This document shows positions 7,984 through 36,222 of a stretch of 64,000 bases of DNA, one piece after another. Every line of letters starts with the position of its first letter. Position 1 is the first letter of the stretch. Both the position numbers and the translations under genes were made by a program. The stretch is from contig JANQEE010000060.1 of assembly GCA_028278525.1 (NCBI GenBank), forward strand, positions 1 to 64,000, written 5' to 3'. Source of the DNA: Minwuiaceae bacterium (GTDB taxonomy: Bacteria > Pseudomonadota > Alphaproteobacteria > Minwuiales > Minwuiaceae). Below the pieces are notes generated by a model. That model was not told where the DNA came from, ran no database searches, and saw only the letters and a list, made by a program, of their open reading frames with translations.

Positions 7984-9498
7984 TTATCCGGGCCGGCGAA
8001 CCCGGACGAGCAGGATAAGCGGCAGCACCGCGACGCAGGCCGCCGTATAGAGATAGAACGCGTTGAGGTTGCCGATCATCACCGCCTGACGGCCGATCTC
8101 GCCGCTCAGGGCCGCGAGGCCGGCGGCGTTGCCGGGGTCCCAGATGCCGATCGCCCAGGGGTAGGCCAGCACCTCGTTGAACGGGGTGATGAACTCGGTC
8201 AGCTCCGCATAGGAGATGTTGGCGGTGCGGATGATCATCGTCACCGACACGGAAATGAAGACGCTGGAGCCGAAGTTGCGCAGCAGGTGAAAGACCGCGG
8301 AGGCTTCCGCCAGAAAACGGCTATCCATGGTGGCGAAGGTCGCGACGGTGAGCGGCACCCAGATGAGGCCGACCGCGATGCCCTGCGCCAGACTGGCCAA
8401 ACCGACGTCGAAGGTGGAGACGTTGAGGTCGAAGCCGATCATGAACCAGCCGGACGCCGCCTGCAGCGCAAAGCCGACGATCATGCCGACGCGCGGGTCC
8501 AGCTTGGCGACGAACATGGCCAGGAAGAACCCGAGTACGGCGCCGACGCCGCGCGCCGCCAGCAGCATGCCGATGATCGAATCCGGAAAACCCATCTGCG
8601 CCTGAAGAAGCGGCGGCAGCAACACCATGGGCGTGAAGTTGAGCATGCCGTAGGCGAACACCAGCACCAGGCCGAGCGAATAGTTTCGGTCCAGCAGCAG
8701 GCCGAGGCGCAGAAACGGACGGGCGGTGGTCAGGCTGTGGGCGACGAAGATGTAGAAGGCGACGACGGCACAGGCCGCTTCGAGGACGATTTCCGTCGAA
8801 TCGAACCAGTCCAGGCGCTGGCCCCGGTCGAGCATCAATTGCAGGCTGATCACGGCCGCGGACAGCGCCAGAAAACCCGTCCAGTCCAGCCGAACGTCGG
8901 ACTCGCGGCCGCGGTCGGTCAGGAACACCCGAAGACCGGCGAGGGCGAGCATGCCGAACGGCACGATCATGAAGAACGCCCAGCGCCAATTGTAGAGTTC
9001 GCTTAAGAAACCGCCGAGCGTCGGTCCGATCGCCGGGCCGACCACCACGCCCATGCCGAAGATCGAGGTGGCGGTGCCGTGCAGCCGCTTCGGAAAGGTG
9101 TCGAGGATGATCGCCTGTCCCATCGGCACCAGGGGCGCGCCGAACGCCCCCTGCAGCACGCGATAGACCACCACCGCTCCGAGCGAGCCGGAAACGCCAC
9201 AGCCGATGGTCGCGAGCGTGAAGCCGAGAACGCCGTAGATCATCACGTTGCGGCGGCCGAACTTGGCCGCGAGCCAGCCGGTCATCGGCGTCACCACGGC
9301 GGTGGCGACGATGTTGAAGGTCATCACCCAGGCGATCTGGTCCTGGGTCGCGGACAGGCTGCCCTGCATCTGCGGCAGCAGCACGCTGACGACCATGATC
9401 GTCATGCCGTAGAGGGTCGTCGCCAGAACCACCGAAATCAGGATCATCGACCGCTGAAAGGGGGTCGTTTCGGTGGCAGCGATCGAAACAGTGGTCAT
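7984..9498 (-). CDS. MFS transporter, DHA2 (EmrB/QacA) drug-export family
   Basis: 504 residues, the length of 14-helix DHA2 exporters. Hydrophobic segments cover the whole protein. The TM1 region is followed by DQIAWVMTFNIVATA, loop motif A reads GWLAAKFGRRN, and motif C-like glycines lie in GVVVGPAIGPTLGG. It should export drugs or toxic metabolites by proton antiport in the inner membrane. EmrB proteins usually pair with an EmrA membrane-fusion partner, which is absent here. ATG 9498 is the first start. Confidence 0.88.
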   Translation of the reverse strand: MTTVSIAATETTPFQRSMILISVVLATTLYGMTIMVVSVLLPQMQGSLSATQDQIAWVMTFNIVATAVVTPMTGWLAAKFGRRNVMIYGVLGFTLATIGCGVSGSLGAVVVYRVLQGAFGAPLVPMGQAIILDTFPKRLHGTATSIFGMGVVVGPAIGPTLGGFLSELYNWRWAFFMIVPFGMLALAGLRVFLTDRGRESDVRLDWTGFLALSAAVISLQLMLDRGQRLDWFDSTEIVLEAACAVVAFYIFVAHSLTTARPFLRLGLLLDRNYSLGLVLVFAYGMLNFTPMVLLPPLLQAQMGFPDSIIGMLLAARGVGAVLGFFLAMFVAKLDPRVGMIVGFALQAASGWFMIGFDLNVSTFDVGLASLAQGIAVGLIWVPLTVATFATMDSRFLAEASAVFHLLRNFGSSVFISVSVTMIIRTANISYAELTEFITPFNEVLAYPWAIGIWDPGNAAGLAALSGEIGRQAVMIGNLNAFYLYTAACVAVLPLILLVRVRRPG

Positions 9499-9735
9499 GG
9501 CGAAGGCGAGTACTCGAAATTACGGGGCCGCAACGCTTCAGAATAAATCACCGGCCCGTTCGGGCCAACGCGACGAAACCGGGACGATGCCTCGGAAAAT
9601 GCCGACATTGTCTCCGATTACGGTGCTGGCGTACTATTGCAATGCAGCATCGAAGACGACCAAGCTTCGGCTGAACCGAGTCCGGCGCCAAAGTCCGGGC
9701 CGAATAGAACAACCACTGAACAGGGATCAAGGCAG

Positions 9736-10908
9736 ATGAACCAATCGGAATTTACGCGCCGGCTCTTCATGCAGGGCATGGCCGGCGTCGCGGGCGCGAC
9801 CGCCGCCGGCGGCATCTTCGGCGCCGCGGCGGCGGAGGGCGAGGCTTTACGCTTCTGGGCGCCGGGCATCGCCAAGGTGGCCGCCAAGGATTTCAGCGCC
9901 ATGGCGGCGCAGGCCGGCATCGGGATCAACAACATCGCCAAAAGCGCCCGCGCCGACGAGGCGATCCAGAAGATGGTGGTTGGCGACGGCCAGAAGCTGT
10001 TCGACGCGCTGACCGACAACGGCGGCGGCATGGAAGACGCCATGGCCGAGAACAAGGCTGTGGTGCCGCTGGACACCGCGAAGATCCCGAACTGGGCCAA
10101 CATCCTGCCGGACTACAACGAAGGCGGCGCGGCGGCGGAGACGATCCGTTACGAGGGCAAGGTCTATGCCGTGCCCTACATCTCCAACGCCGATTCGATG
10201 GCCTACAACTACGACGAACTCGGCTTCCACCCGGATAGCTGGGGCGTGATGTTCGATTCCCAGTTCAAGGGACGCGTGGCGCTGCAGAACGACTACGGGC
10301 CGACGCTGACAAACGTGGCGATCTACCTGAAGGAAAGCGGCAAGATCGAGATCGACAATCCGTCGGACATGAATCCGAAAGAGGTCAAGGCGGTCTGCGA
10401 ATTCCTGATCGACCACAAGAAGAAGGGGCAGTTCCGCACTTTCTGGGACGGCTTCCAGAACGGTGTCGACCTGCTGGCGAGCAAGGAAGTGGTGATGTCG
10501 TCCTGCTGGGAGCCGATCCAGCTGGTCGCCCGCAAGAAGGGCGCCAACATCCATTACGGCACCATGAAGGAAGGCCACCAGACCTGGAACAACGTGCTGA
10601 TGTTCACCAAGGGCGGCCGGCAGCGCGGCATGGACGAGGCCTTCTACAAGCTGGCCAACGTCTATTTGTCGCCGTGGTTCGGCGCGCGCACGCTGGCGAC
10701 CTTCGGCTTCGCGCCGCAGATGACCGGCGTCGACGACTACCTGAACGCCAACACCGAGGACTTCGACGAGGCGGCGCGGGAGCGGCTGCTCGACATCCTC
10801 AACCGCAAGCAGCAGCGCTACGCGGTCAAGGGCAATTCGTGGCAGAACGTGTTCCCGACCCATATCCGGGAGTACCTGGATTGGTGGAGCCGGCTGCAAG
10901 CGGCCTGA
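9736..10908 (+). CDS. ABC transporter substrate-binding protein, spermidine/putrescine (PotD) type, Tat-exported
   Basis: 390 residues. The N-terminus EFTRRLFMQGMAGVAG is a twin-arginine signal followed by an Ala/Gly-rich hydrophobic stretch, so export should be folded via Tat. The mature part belongs to extracellular solute-binding family 8 (polyamine, Fe3+, quaternary amines). It is the first gene of a complete importer: two permeases and an ATPase follow on the same strand. The start at 9736 has GGCAG upstream; the frame extends to 9637 without a better signal. The ligand is not evident; the enzymes downstream suggest a methylated or quaternary compound rather than a simple polyamine. Confidence 0.88.
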   Translation: MNQSEFTRRLFMQGMAGVAGATAAGGIFGAAAAEGEALRFWAPGIAKVAAKDFSAMAAQAGIGINNIAKSARADEAIQKMVVGDGQKLFDALTDNGGGMEDAMAENKAVVPLDTAKIPNWANILPDYNEGGAAAETIRYEGKVYAVPYISNADSMAYNYDELGFHPDSWGVMFDSQFKGRVALQNDYGPTLTNVAIYLKESGKIEIDNPSDMNPKEVKAVCEFLIDHKKKGQFRTFWDGFQNGVDLLASKEVVMSSCWEPIQLVARKKGANIHYGTMKEGHQTWNNVLMFTKGGRQRGMDEAFYKLANVYLSPWFGARTLATFGFAPQMTGVDDYLNANTEDFDEAARERLLDILNRKQQRYAVKGNSWQNVFPTHIREYLDWWSRLQAA

Positions 10909-32524: not shown

Positions 32525-32659
32525 GGCGGCGGCTCCAGGGTCGGTGGCAGGATCGATTCGCGCCCGCTACGTCACCATAACCCGGCCTGAATCGCCAGTC
32601 CGGATCGACGACACCGCTACCGGCTTAAGGCGGATTATGCTATCCATCGACCCGGAAAG

Positions 32660-32736
32660 CGCCCGTAGCTCAGCCGGATAGAGCACAGGATTCCTAATCC
32701 TGGGGTCGCAGGTTCGAATCCTGCCGGGCGCGCCAC
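32660..32736 (+). tRNA. tRNA-Arg (anticodon CCU)
   Basis: 77 bases folding as a complete cloverleaf. The acceptor GCGCCCG pairs with CGGGCGC, the D-arm is GCTC/GAGC, the anticodon stem CAGGA/TCCTG encloses loop TTCCTAA (anticodon CCT), and the T-arm GCAGG/CCTGC encloses TTCGAAT. CCA is encoded. It reads AGG codons. The AT-richer island begins directly after its 3' end, a usual integration position. Confidence 0.97.
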
Positions 32737-32894
32737 AAAAAGTTTGCGGTCCACGACTCAGCATTGAAGAGCAGCTTTAGAGCACTAACCGACTCAGCTG
32801 AGTACACTAAGACTATGCCCAACAGTGCTGTGAATGGCAGGCTTTGGCGGTGGCGTAAATCCATTGACCGTTTATCTCCAAGAAAGACAATTGT

Positions 32895-35315
32895 TTGGCA
32901 CGCGTAGACGGCTCCATAAATCTTCGCCCGACTCGCATCGGGTTCCTCGTCCGCCCGGCTGATACTGCCTCGATTAGCCGCATTATGCGATGGTGCGCTT
33001 GCCTTTGGGGCGGCCGGTTTAACCCCATCATTCCGGTTGGCAGGTATCCGAAATGCTGGCGTGAAAAGCATGTAGCTTTTCGCAGACCCGACCGAGAGGT
33101 CGCGCGTGATTATATGCAATTCTTCGAACCCGATGTCGTCGTCGAAAGTGAACCGGGCTTGGCCACCTCGATTGGCTATGCCGCTTTAGACGAAGACCAC
33201 GTTGAACGTCAGTTGCTTAGCCTAGACGCACTCTTCTCAAGCGAAGGCGAGTCACGACCAAAATTTCATTTTGGCTTGTCTGTACGTGACGCGTATGAGG
33301 ACATTTATCGAACTCAGCGACAATTCGTTCTCCGGGACGCACCTCCCGCTATGATTTTCAACGAGACAAAGTTTTCTCCAATAGTCGAAGCCGTGTTCGG
33401 CGCTTTCCCGACAGAAGAACGTGCTCAAGTGTTCCGTGAAACTTTCGTCGATGTGTTCCGGCCTGAAAAGGCCGATCTCACCGTCGAGCATTGGTTCAAG
33501 TATTTTAGTGATGGTGCAATCAGCCCATTTGTGCCTACCAATCACAAAATAGAGGTCGATCCGCGAGGACTCCGTGAGCTCTCATTCTTTATCTTCGATC
33601 ATACCAAGCCTGCGGACCTCATTGATTACTGGAACAAGCGTCTGTTCGAAGCGCATGTTTATCCCGTTCCTGTCTGTTGGTTGGAAGATATCGCTCCAAC
33701 CATGGCTGACATGATCAAGCGCAACCACAGACCGATCCCGAACAATCCCTCTGGCACAAAATTCCATGGCGTCTTGTATTTTGGCCGTAGTCTCAAGAAA
33801 GAGACGGTGACCGAACTGACTCGCAAATACCTTTCCGATTGCCCTGACGATGCATTTTACATGGGCCGTGTGTGGCACCCAATTGTATCCACTAATCATC
33901 GTGGTCCGACCTGTGAACGCCATGCCGTCAATGTCGACAGCGCAACGTTCGACGCAGAAATCACAGAGGGGAGAGCGGTCCGATTCAACACGCTAGCGCC
34001 AGACTTCGCCCATCGGTACGGCGGAGGTCTTTATCAGTGGGCAAATGTCGTCAATCTGCGTAGCTTTAGCGGGGACCCATGGGCGCTCACCTATCCGTCA
34101 AATCTTGAAGACCGCTCTACACCGCGCCTATTCCGAAACCCGTGGCAACGGCCTGTTGTGACACGGGAAGGATGGGTACTCGGGCAGCAATATAAGGGAT
34201 CGCAAGAGTGGATTGAACTATCGGATGGACCCAGCGCGATTGCCGAATGGTTAAAGCGAAAAGACATCAAGGCTGAGCTTTCGAGCGCAGGAAGGATTGC
34301 CAAGCAGATGCTGGAAAGTCTCGGGAGTCTATGGGCCACCCACGTAATCGCGCATCGCGAGATCATAAGCCTACTGAACAGCATGGCTGCTCAGGAGATC
34401 GTAAGAGGTGCGGCTGATGAAGCTACTCGGCGGCAGTTTGAAGGGCGAACAGTTCTAGCAGGACGTTGGAAATCCTTAGTCAAGCGTCTGCCGCGGTTGA
34501 AACTCGACGATTTTATCAAGTTGAGTATTCTTAAGCTTGGCCTCGGTGTTGACTGCCCGAACTGCACCCACAGCAATTGGTACGGCTTAAATGACGTAGA
34601 TTACGAGGTAACCTGCGAACGTTGCCTGAAAGCTTTTCAGTTTCCCCAGGGCAACACCAGCGCTCGCTGGAAGTACAGAGTAACCGGCCCTTTTAGTGTT
34701 CCCAATTTTTCTGGGGGTGCTTACGCCGTCGCACTCACCCTACATGTTTTCTACATGAGAATTCTGGGTAGCAGCGATACGGAGATGACTTATGCCACTG
34801 GCTTAAATTTGGCGCACAAAGACTTCGAGAAGGAAATCGATTTCGCTTTTTGGTACAGCAGGCGACCGATCACTGGTCAGCGCTCCGAACCACGCTTTGT
34901 ATTTGGCGAAGCTAAGAGTTTCGCTGAAGAGGCTATCACCGATGACGAGATCGAAGCTTTAAAGAAGGTATCTAGAGTTTTGCCAGGAGCAATCGTCGTC
35001 GTTTCTGTGATGAAGATGGCGTTCAGCAAGAATGAGAAGGCGCGCCTTGCTGAACTAACAAAGTGGGGTTGGGAGAGGGTCGATGGCCGGCACCGCGCTC
35101 AGGTGCTGCTGCTAACCGGGGTAGAATTGTTTGCGGATTTCACTGTTAGGGCGGCTTGGGACGATGCCGGTGAACCATACTCAAAAGATACAGACTATTC
35201 GATTTTCAATGATCTTGATGAGTTTGCGCGGGCTACACAGAAAATCCACCTAGGCCTCGACTACGACGACGAGATCAAAAAGAAAAGAAAGCCTGCAAAC
35301 AAAAAAAGACGATAA
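32895..35315 (+). CDS. Unrecognised 806-residue protein with zinc ribbon and probable PD-(D/E)XK nuclease domain
   Basis: I do not recognise a named family. Visible parts are an N-terminal segment with the motif LWGGRFNPIIP (about residues 37-47), a long middle region, a zinc ribbon with CPNC (about 554) and CERC (about 574), then EIDFAFW (about 647) followed by VFGEAKSF (about 670). The last two match the Asp and Glu-x-Lys of PD-(D/E)XK nucleases, and the hydrophobic strand GAIVVVSVM follows as in that fold. The tail is KKKRKPANKKRR. Base composition is clearly more AT-rich than its neighbours, and it lies 158 bases after tRNA-Arg, so it was probably acquired. A palindrome ACTCAGCTGAGT (32792-32803) lies upstream. 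Start is TTG 32895 by default and uncertain. A single-gene defence function is inference. Confidence 0.75.
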   Translation: MARVDGSINLRPTRIGFLVRPADTASISRIMRWCACLWGGRFNPIIPVGRYPKCWREKHVAFRRPDREVARDYMQFFEPDVVVESEPGLATSIGYAALDEDHVERQLLSLDALFSSEGESRPKFHFGLSVRDAYEDIYRTQRQFVLRDAPPAMIFNETKFSPIVEAVFGAFPTEERAQVFRETFVDVFRPEKADLTVEHWFKYFSDGAISPFVPTNHKIEVDPRGLRELSFFIFDHTKPADLIDYWNKRLFEAHVYPVPVCWLEDIAPTMADMIKRNHRPIPNNPSGTKFHGVLYFGRSLKKETVTELTRKYLSDCPDDAFYMGRVWHPIVSTNHRGPTCERHAVNVDSATFDAEITEGRAVRFNTLAPDFAHRYGGGLYQWANVVNLRSFSGDPWALTYPSNLEDRSTPRLFRNPWQRPVVTREGWVLGQQYKGSQEWIELSDGPSAIAEWLKRKDIKAELSSAGRIAKQMLESLGSLWATHVIAHREIISLLNSMAAQEIVRGAADEATRRQFEGRTVLAGRWKSLVKRLPRLKLDDFIKLSILKLGLGVDCPNCTHSNWYGLNDVDYEVTCERCLKAFQFPQGNTSARWKYRVTGPFSVPNFSGGAYAVALTLHVFYMRILGSSDTEMTYATGLNLAHKDFEKEIDFAFWYSRRPITGQRSEPRFVFGEAKSFAEEAITDDEIEALKKVSRVLPGAIVVVSVMKMAFSKNEKARLAELTKWGWERVDGRHRAQVLLLTGVELFADFTVRAAWDDAGEPYSKDTDYSIFNDLDEFARATQKIHLGLDYDDEIKKKRKPANKKRR

Positions 35316-35513: not shown

Positions 35514-36126
35514 TCAGGCCTTGGCGCTTTTGGTAGCAAGTTCGTGCCAACGCTCCAACGGCGGATGGGCGTTCATCAACTGCGGCTCCCATTCAAGAAA
35601 CCTCACATACCAAGCCATCAAGCCATCCCAATCGGACAATTTCCCCGGCGGAATGAGTGCCCAGCCCAGTTCTTCGAGTGTCCAATGCGCCTTGGCGCTG
35701 TTCCGCACCATGGATGTCGTAACGATGTTTTCGTCATGGTCGGCACCGCCGCGGGATACCGGAATTACGTGGTCGTGGGTTGGATGCAGTTTCCAGTGGA
35801 TCATGTGGCATTGATCCGTTCGCCAATTCGGGTGGTAGGGTAAAGTCCGACGGTAGAAGGACACTAAGCAGACGGAGGACGCCGGGATAGACTAGCCGCT
35901 CGCCGCTGTAGCGGTCGACGAAGCCGTCGCGCATCCAAAGCTGCAGCAACTCCGATGGCGATCTTTTGCGCGGAGTCTTTTTGACGGGAGCGAACGGCCA
36001 TCGCGCTTTGGCAAGCGCACTGGCGCGATCGGCGCTGCCGTTCGCAACGAGTTCGCAGATTTCCTCGACAAGAGCGGTGTAATTCTCGTGGATCATGCTG
36101 AAGTCCGTACAGTCTGTACGATACAT
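35514..36126 (-). pseudogene. HNH endonuclease gene with a one-base frameshift
   Basis: Two overlapping minus-strand frames together make one HNH protein. The N-terminal frame (from ATG 36126 or 36096) reads to VLRLLSVLLPSDF; the C-terminal frame resumes with PYHPNW and carries the HNH core DHVIPVSRGGADHDENIVTT and NSAKAHWTLEELGW. Removing the T at 35841 (an A in the coding strand) joins DF directly to PYHPNW, as expected for this family. So this is a one-base insertion, real or a sequencing error. The intact product would be a nuclease of about 190 residues. It lies in the AT-richer tRNA-Arg island. The downstream piece alone could start at 35864, but it lacks the N-terminal half. Confidence 0.75.
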
Positions 36127-36222
36127 CGTACGAACTTGTGTTTTCGGACGATAGATCAGGATTCCATGCCCACTGTCTCGCTGCGGCCGAGGCGGTCGCG
36201 GGCGCGACGGCATCGACCATGG

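Follow-up and report, generated by a model that had tools for sequence, protein, structure and literature searches.

An 806-residue protein behind tRNA-Arg in a Minwuiaceae genome: a candidate sensor-effector nuclease from an unnamed family that moves horizontally

What does a single large gene of foreign composition do directly behind a tRNA gene in an alphaproteobacterial genome? The question is raised by the window analysed here, a stretch of 64,000 nucleotides of contig JANQEE010000060.1 from a Minwuiaceae bacterium, for which a sequence-only reading had proposed a single-gene nuclease defence system on an island at tRNA-Arg. The nuclease idea holds in the sequence as well as in the structural model, and what points to defence is the genomic context of the relatives. 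Overall, the gene is a good candidate for a bacterial immune protein, and an anti-phage or anti-plasmid role is, we infer, the most likely one for the family.

A gene of foreign composition at tRNA-Arg

The 806-codon reading frame is real and open throughout from its TTG start, 160 bp past the end of the tRNA (Table 1); the range originally given for it, 32660-35315, also spans the tRNA. The motif AAGAAAG lies 8 nt upstream of the start, and the starts of homologues align within a few residues of this TTG. A scan for promoters and terminators stayed at chance level. The 6 Mb genome carries the gene only once, and the window copy is solitary, without a close co-directional neighbour. It is compositionally foreign, given that the GC content of the gene block is about 51% as against 60-73% across most of the window, and that its GC3 of 0.54 contrasts with those of four nearby genes encoding an antiporter (0.94), an oxidoreductase (0.88), an ICMT-type methyltransferase (0.82) and an enoyl-CoA hydratase (0.89).

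Of the proposed island at the tRNA, the adjacency and the foreign composition stand, whereas neither an att repeat nor an integrase was found. Insertion of the gene at tRNA-Arg is thus plausible and not proven: a repeat of the tRNA-Arg 3' end, considered as an att site, had to be rejected within the window, as had terminal repeats, and the interval from 30 to 38.5 kb showed no integrase ORF. A comparison with empty sites was equally abandoned, the antiporter homologues of relatives lying there without an adjoining tRNA and leaving no clean empty site. Elsewhere in the family, three copies have a tRNA no more than 300 bp away, against 0.28 expected under an assumed density of one tRNA per 80 kb (P ~0.003).

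Two further frames of the vicinity deserve mention. A minus-strand ORF at 32694-33119, overlapping the tRNA and the start of the gene, looks spurious. Downstream, at 35514-36213 on the minus strand, the overlapping frames 35734-36213 and 35514-35864, with low GC3 values of 0.60-0.67, each seem to be part of one HNH nuclease-like gene, the split of which suggests a frameshift or a sequencing error near 35845.

Table 1. Coordinates, in the window, of the gene, its tRNA neighbour and the parts of the predicted protein
Feature	Residues	Position	Strand	Remarks
tRNA-Arg (anticodon CCT)		32659..32735	+	ARAGORN; upstream neighbour of the gene, candidate insertion landmark
806-aa protein of an unnamed family		32895..35315	+	sensor candidate (Rossmann-like) at the N-terminus, then zinc ribbon and PD-(D/E)XK-like nuclease
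N-terminal region	1-330	32895..33884	+	AlphaFold strands and helices alternate (Rossmann-like); proposed sensor/ligand-binding part
LWGGRFNPIIP motif	37-47	33003..33035	+	within the N-terminal signature RPxRxGFLVRPxD...CLWGGxxNPIIP
Zinc ribbon (CxxC-16-CxxC)	C554-C557 + C574-C577	34554..34625	+	four Cys in 38/38 covering members
PD-(D/E)XK-like nuclease core	605-750	34707..35144	+	AlphaFold elements
Catalytic candidate, strand 2	E647-x-D649	34833..34841	+	invariant 38/38
Catalytic candidate, strand 3 (GEAKS)	E672-x-K674 (E672-A-K674)	34908..34916	+	invariant 38/38

Protein anatomy and the predicted nuclease fold

The three elements on which the sequence-only reading had been built, namely the N-terminal LWGG motif, the CxxC...CxxC ribbon and an Asp...Glu-x-Lys pair, are all present and conserved. 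Residues W38, G39 and G40 are kept in 39 of 40 aligned members, the remaining one being gapped, and the N-terminal region also carries an invariant W246-N247 within a DLIDYWN motif. Among the 38 members reaching the C-terminus, the cysteines and catalytic candidates of Table 1 are invariant together with G671 and E744, a conservation that, with the dN/dS values given below, goes beyond chance. An internal duplication of the N-terminal half (GFLVRP...NPIIP versus FIFD...PVP), plausible by eye, was rejected at an hhalign probability of 1.6%.

The AlphaFold model, obtained from a 40-row alignment (pLDDT 85.6, pTM 0.85), arranges residues 609-705 as alpha-beta-beta-beta-alpha-beta, with a helix at 609-622, strands at 628-641, 644-657 and 667-674, a helix at 683-695 and a strand at 700-705; E647 and D649 fall on the second strand and E672 and K674 on the third, and a separate model of residues 531-806 gives the same core. 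The predicted structure therefore has the order of the PD-(D/E)XK core fold, with its acidic strand 2 and the (D/E)xK of strand 3, and does not refute the nuclease proposal. In a Foldseek search with the whole model, Cdn1 ranked first, at a probability of 0.99 and an E-value of 3.2e-4; Card1 and MspJI were listed too. With the C-terminal model, Cdn1 had the highest probability among the matches listed (0.85) at an E-value of only 0.077 and a TM-score of 0.33, and the nuclease must hence be considered divergent; no high-TM-score match to a solved structure was among the Foldseek matches. The N-terminal half gave weak matches to Cdn1/Card1, MurI (glutamate racemase) and MurG.

In profile-profile comparison (hhalign), the best match of the nuclease part is Mrr_cat, at 20% probability and with the catalytic residues in register, a score reached by none of 150 column-shuffled Mrr profiles. 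Card1 and SduA were rejected as profile matches, their scores lying within the shuffle range (reached by 5 and 2 of 150 shuffles, respectively). As a yardstick, SduA against Mrr, from the same superfamily, scores 3.7%, and Card1 against Mrr 93%. Taken together, sequence and prediction lend good support to a nuclease, and the protein very probably ends in a domain that cuts DNA or RNA.

The family libraries, dating from 2023 (PADLOC) to 2026, hold no name for this protein. Searches of Pfam, NCBIfam, the PDB and the known defence models of PADLOC-DB 2.0.0 gave no match for it, and PHROGs gave a single meaningless one (E 0.67); a profile of 40 members found nothing in the PDB. Scanned singly against Pfam and PADLOC, the 40 members gave scattered weak matches only, those in PADLOC being one to PDC-M33C (5e-4) and one to BrxD (0.0075), and three distant relatives that were tried have no model in Pfam or PADLOC.

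The closest known designs include those of the type III CRISPR accessory nucleases Card1, Can2 and Cdn1 (CARF plus PD-(D/E)XK, PF09002), which likewise join a Rossmann-like N-terminus to a C-terminal PD-(D/E)XK domain. The N-terminus of the window protein, Rossmann-like by model, falls within the alignment with Cdn1, the cyclic-oligoadenylate-binding nuclease that is the top structural match, and E647 and D649 stand as far apart as the catalytic E276/D278 in Can2 (PMC7969007). However, the window protein is twice as long, with an extra middle region and the zinc ribbon; no PF09002 match occurs in 40 members, and hhalign gives a probability of 1%. Neither sequence HMMs nor profile comparison link its N-terminus to CARF or any known sensor, and no cas gene was recognised by eye in the neighbour listings of the relatives, where the PADLOC scan of neighbours comprised the best 25 of 309 families. 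Mrr-type restriction endonucleases (PF04471) provide the best profile match described above, although no member of the 40 matches PF04471, the similarity being below Pfam detection, and the N-terminal half is different and much larger. The protein would work like the CARF nucleases or the Mrr enzymes, and it cannot be filed under either because a PF09002 or PF04471 match is lacking.

Two other systems share parts of this design. The REase protein associated with pPIWI-RE carries a zinc ribbon directly before its REase-fold domain (Burroughs et al., 2013; PMC3702460), and the order of ribbon and nuclease, the patchy distribution and the prediction of a defence role are all alike; in contrast, no DinG helicase or pPIWI-RE was recognised by eye beside the relatives, no partner is conserved across loci, no Pfam match is found, and the conserved N-terminal half is not described in that work. 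Shedu SduA (PF14082) is a single-gene PD-(D/E)XK defence protein as proposed here, yet there is no PF14082 HMM match. DefensePredictor has validated 13 systems with PD-(D/E)XK domains (PMC13092281), and the family, unnamed in libraries up to 2026, may sit in such a newer set under another name.

Spread and genomic neighbourhoods of the family

About 45 relatives were found in at least ten phyla, a pattern scan with one genome per species yielding 40 loci. They come from Alpha-, Beta- and Gammaproteobacteria, Dadabacteria, Planctomycetota, Acidobacteria and Poribacteria, and further from Nitrospirota, Myxococcota, Actinobacteria, Verrucomicrobiota and Mariprofundaceae, with overall identities of 17-56% (38 relatives reaching the C-terminal region). 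Subfamily A, of about 800 aa, holds the window protein, and subfamily B, of about 770 aa, shows the motif as WGGRFNP. A third, more distant ring (G290, G284, G175) still has the RPxR start and the ribbon, along with most of the acidic/Lys set; the lysine position is altered in the G290 frame, and the G175 frame runs off its contig past the ribbon. Distant relatives keep both halves of the protein. Fusion of the N-terminal domain to other effectors was looked for and not found among viral contigs or in the genome sample, and a split gene in G179 sits on two contigs and says nothing about domain separation.

The family is rare, occurring in 4 of 398 genomes of a phylum sample, the window's own included, and in 1 of 385 of a class sample, that one being the window's own, which amounts to about 1% or less of the genomes in both. 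Its tree mixes phyla with strong support, the pattern that horizontal transfer would produce; Phycisphaerae, for example, stand next to Rhizobiales, Acidobacteria group with Rhodoplanes, and Nitrospirota fall together with Nitrosomonas and a gammaproteobacterium. The dN/dS of 0.05-0.21 between closer relatives indicates purifying selection. Judged from its sequences, the family is horizontally mobile, sporadic and under purifying selection. With tblastn, a Photobacterium plasmid yielded a full-length relative (29.6% identity) and a Bradyrhizobium plasmid a distant one. A phage origin was rejected, there being no match in annotated phages, no structural match in BFVD and one contig only (L048) with a relative in IMG/VR; the L048 protein is 90% identical to that of the Photobacterium plasmid, and the contig may be a plasmid and not a phage.

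The relatives are mobile and sporadic, and many lie beside known defence genes, an outcome that does not refute the defence proposal. By raw count, 12 of about 37 loci have defence-type neighbours, including type I restriction-modification (RM), SIR2, HEPN, HNH effectors, Abi and DUF4365; the gene calls around the loci come from a simple ORF picker, and several of the names were assigned by eye. Three Poribacteria copies (L032, L034, L042) each lie in a type I RM locus, where hsdM is found upstream, hsdS starts 5-13 bp after the family gene and the R-subunit gene lies downstream. HsdM is also near the copy in L013, together with SIR2- and HerA-like genes recognised by eye; SIR2 recurs in L009, a DUF3427-HNH gene is found in L035, and DUF4365 in L017 and L045 (locus assignment by eye). 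In L022 an HNH effector gene (8879-9907) whose N-domain is that of CBASS effectors lies 91 bp upstream, a HEPN Ymh gene (1116-2195) overlaps the start of the family gene by 4 bp in L031, and an AbiU2 HEPN gene (9034-9876) is directly upstream in L028. The Bradyrhizobium plasmid copy comes after PrlF-YhaV, an Abi gene and a pair of ATPase and S8 peptidase.

Signs of mobility are found as well: integrases adjoin the G284 relative and the copies in L011, L012, L025 and L041, and three tyrosine recombinases precede the relative on a Burkholderia plasmid. Housekeeping genes surround the copies in L014, L016, L020, L027 and L029, where no defence gene was recognised. In about half of the loci or more, the family gene is without a close co-directional gene of at least 80 aa; since the window copy is among them, the gene can plausibly act alone.

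Proposed role and rival explanations

The reading that we favour, with little better than an even chance, is that of a single-chain sensor-effector nuclease from a horizontally mobile family that would cleave nucleic acid when triggered by infection. The nuclease fold is predicted, and its activation, substrate and defence outcome would, we infer, be as follows. The N-terminal Rossmann-like half, with its LWGG...NPIIP and DLIDYWN motifs, would recognise a sign of infection, whether a small ligand, some nucleic acid or a different product of the phage; this signal would release or position the C-terminal nuclease, and the zinc ribbon and PD-(D/E)XK domain would then cut the nucleic acid of the invader or, in an abortive response, that of the cell itself.

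The main rival, which we regard as unlikely albeit worth serious weight, is direct restriction of the type IV kind (Mrr/McrA-like), in which the N-terminal half would read foreign or modified DNA and the C-terminal domain cut it, with neither second messenger nor suicide. The Mrr_cat match unequalled by shuffled profiles, the lack of a methylase gene linked to the window copy and to most others, and the DUF3427-HNH and type I RM neighbours are all in keeping with it; however, no SRA, YTH or McrA SBD reader domain was detected in any member, the Rossmann-like N-terminus is unlike known readers, and the three HsdM/S-linked copies belong to operons that do bear a methylase. A distinctly improbable explanation is that the protein serves other defence systems as an accessory subunit (that of type I RM in Poribacteria, of HEPN, HNH or STAND operons elsewhere) and is active only with its partner. 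The close spacing to HsdS, the HEPN overlap in L031, the nearby HNH effector in L022, a shared 441-aa gene 19 bp upstream in L011 and L012, and a 1226-aa gene ending 10 bp upstream of the G290 relative would fit such a role, but the partners vary by locus, and the many solitary copies, the window's included, argue against it.

Very improbable in our view is a function in the maintenance or integration of mobile elements, such as that of a TnsA-like or homing nuclease. It finds an echo in the tyrosine recombinases that adjoin L041, G284 and the Burkholderia plasmid copies, and in the proximity to tRNA genes; against this, most copies have no adjoining recombinase, the recombinases differ, and the window is without terminal repeats. 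That the protein is not a nuclease at all or serves a housekeeping task would agree with the modest structural matches and the position of some copies between core genes, but is barely credible given the invariant catalytic-type set, the patchy distribution and the foreign composition.

Returning to the sensor-effector nuclease, a bolder version of it, offered tentatively, takes the LWGG...NPIIP/DLIDYWN half as a new class of infection sensor, Rossmann-like and analogous to CARF, mounted on an Mrr-like nuclease, which would stand alone and, in many phyla, would also be built into operons of the type I RM, HEPN, HNH and STAND kinds. If the protein is an immune nuclease, the family would add a system widespread over at least ten phyla that model-based surveys miss, and its sensor half, having no known relative, may read an unknown infection signal. 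Solitary copies such as that of the window make the family testable with one gene.

Several neighbouring genes are of interest in their own right. Together with the family gene, the upstream HNH gene of L022, HEPN Ymh gene of L031 and AbiU2 gene of L028 could form two-gene modules. The unannotated 441-aa protein (L011:8648-9973), with a PKGGPDGGRDLQ motif and REase-like by eye, accompanies the Roseobacteraceae copies (L011, L012, L004, L009), its frame being split into three ORFs in L004 and L012. The 1226-aa gene of G290 (L145:2530-8817) has a restriction-enzyme-like N-terminus by eye and could form a STAND-nuclease pair with the distant family member. Finally, on a conjugative plasmid of Burkholderia glumae (L148:4104-14490), three consecutive tyrosine recombinases and a small ORF are followed by the distant relative, which is apparently a cargo gene borne by the recombinases.
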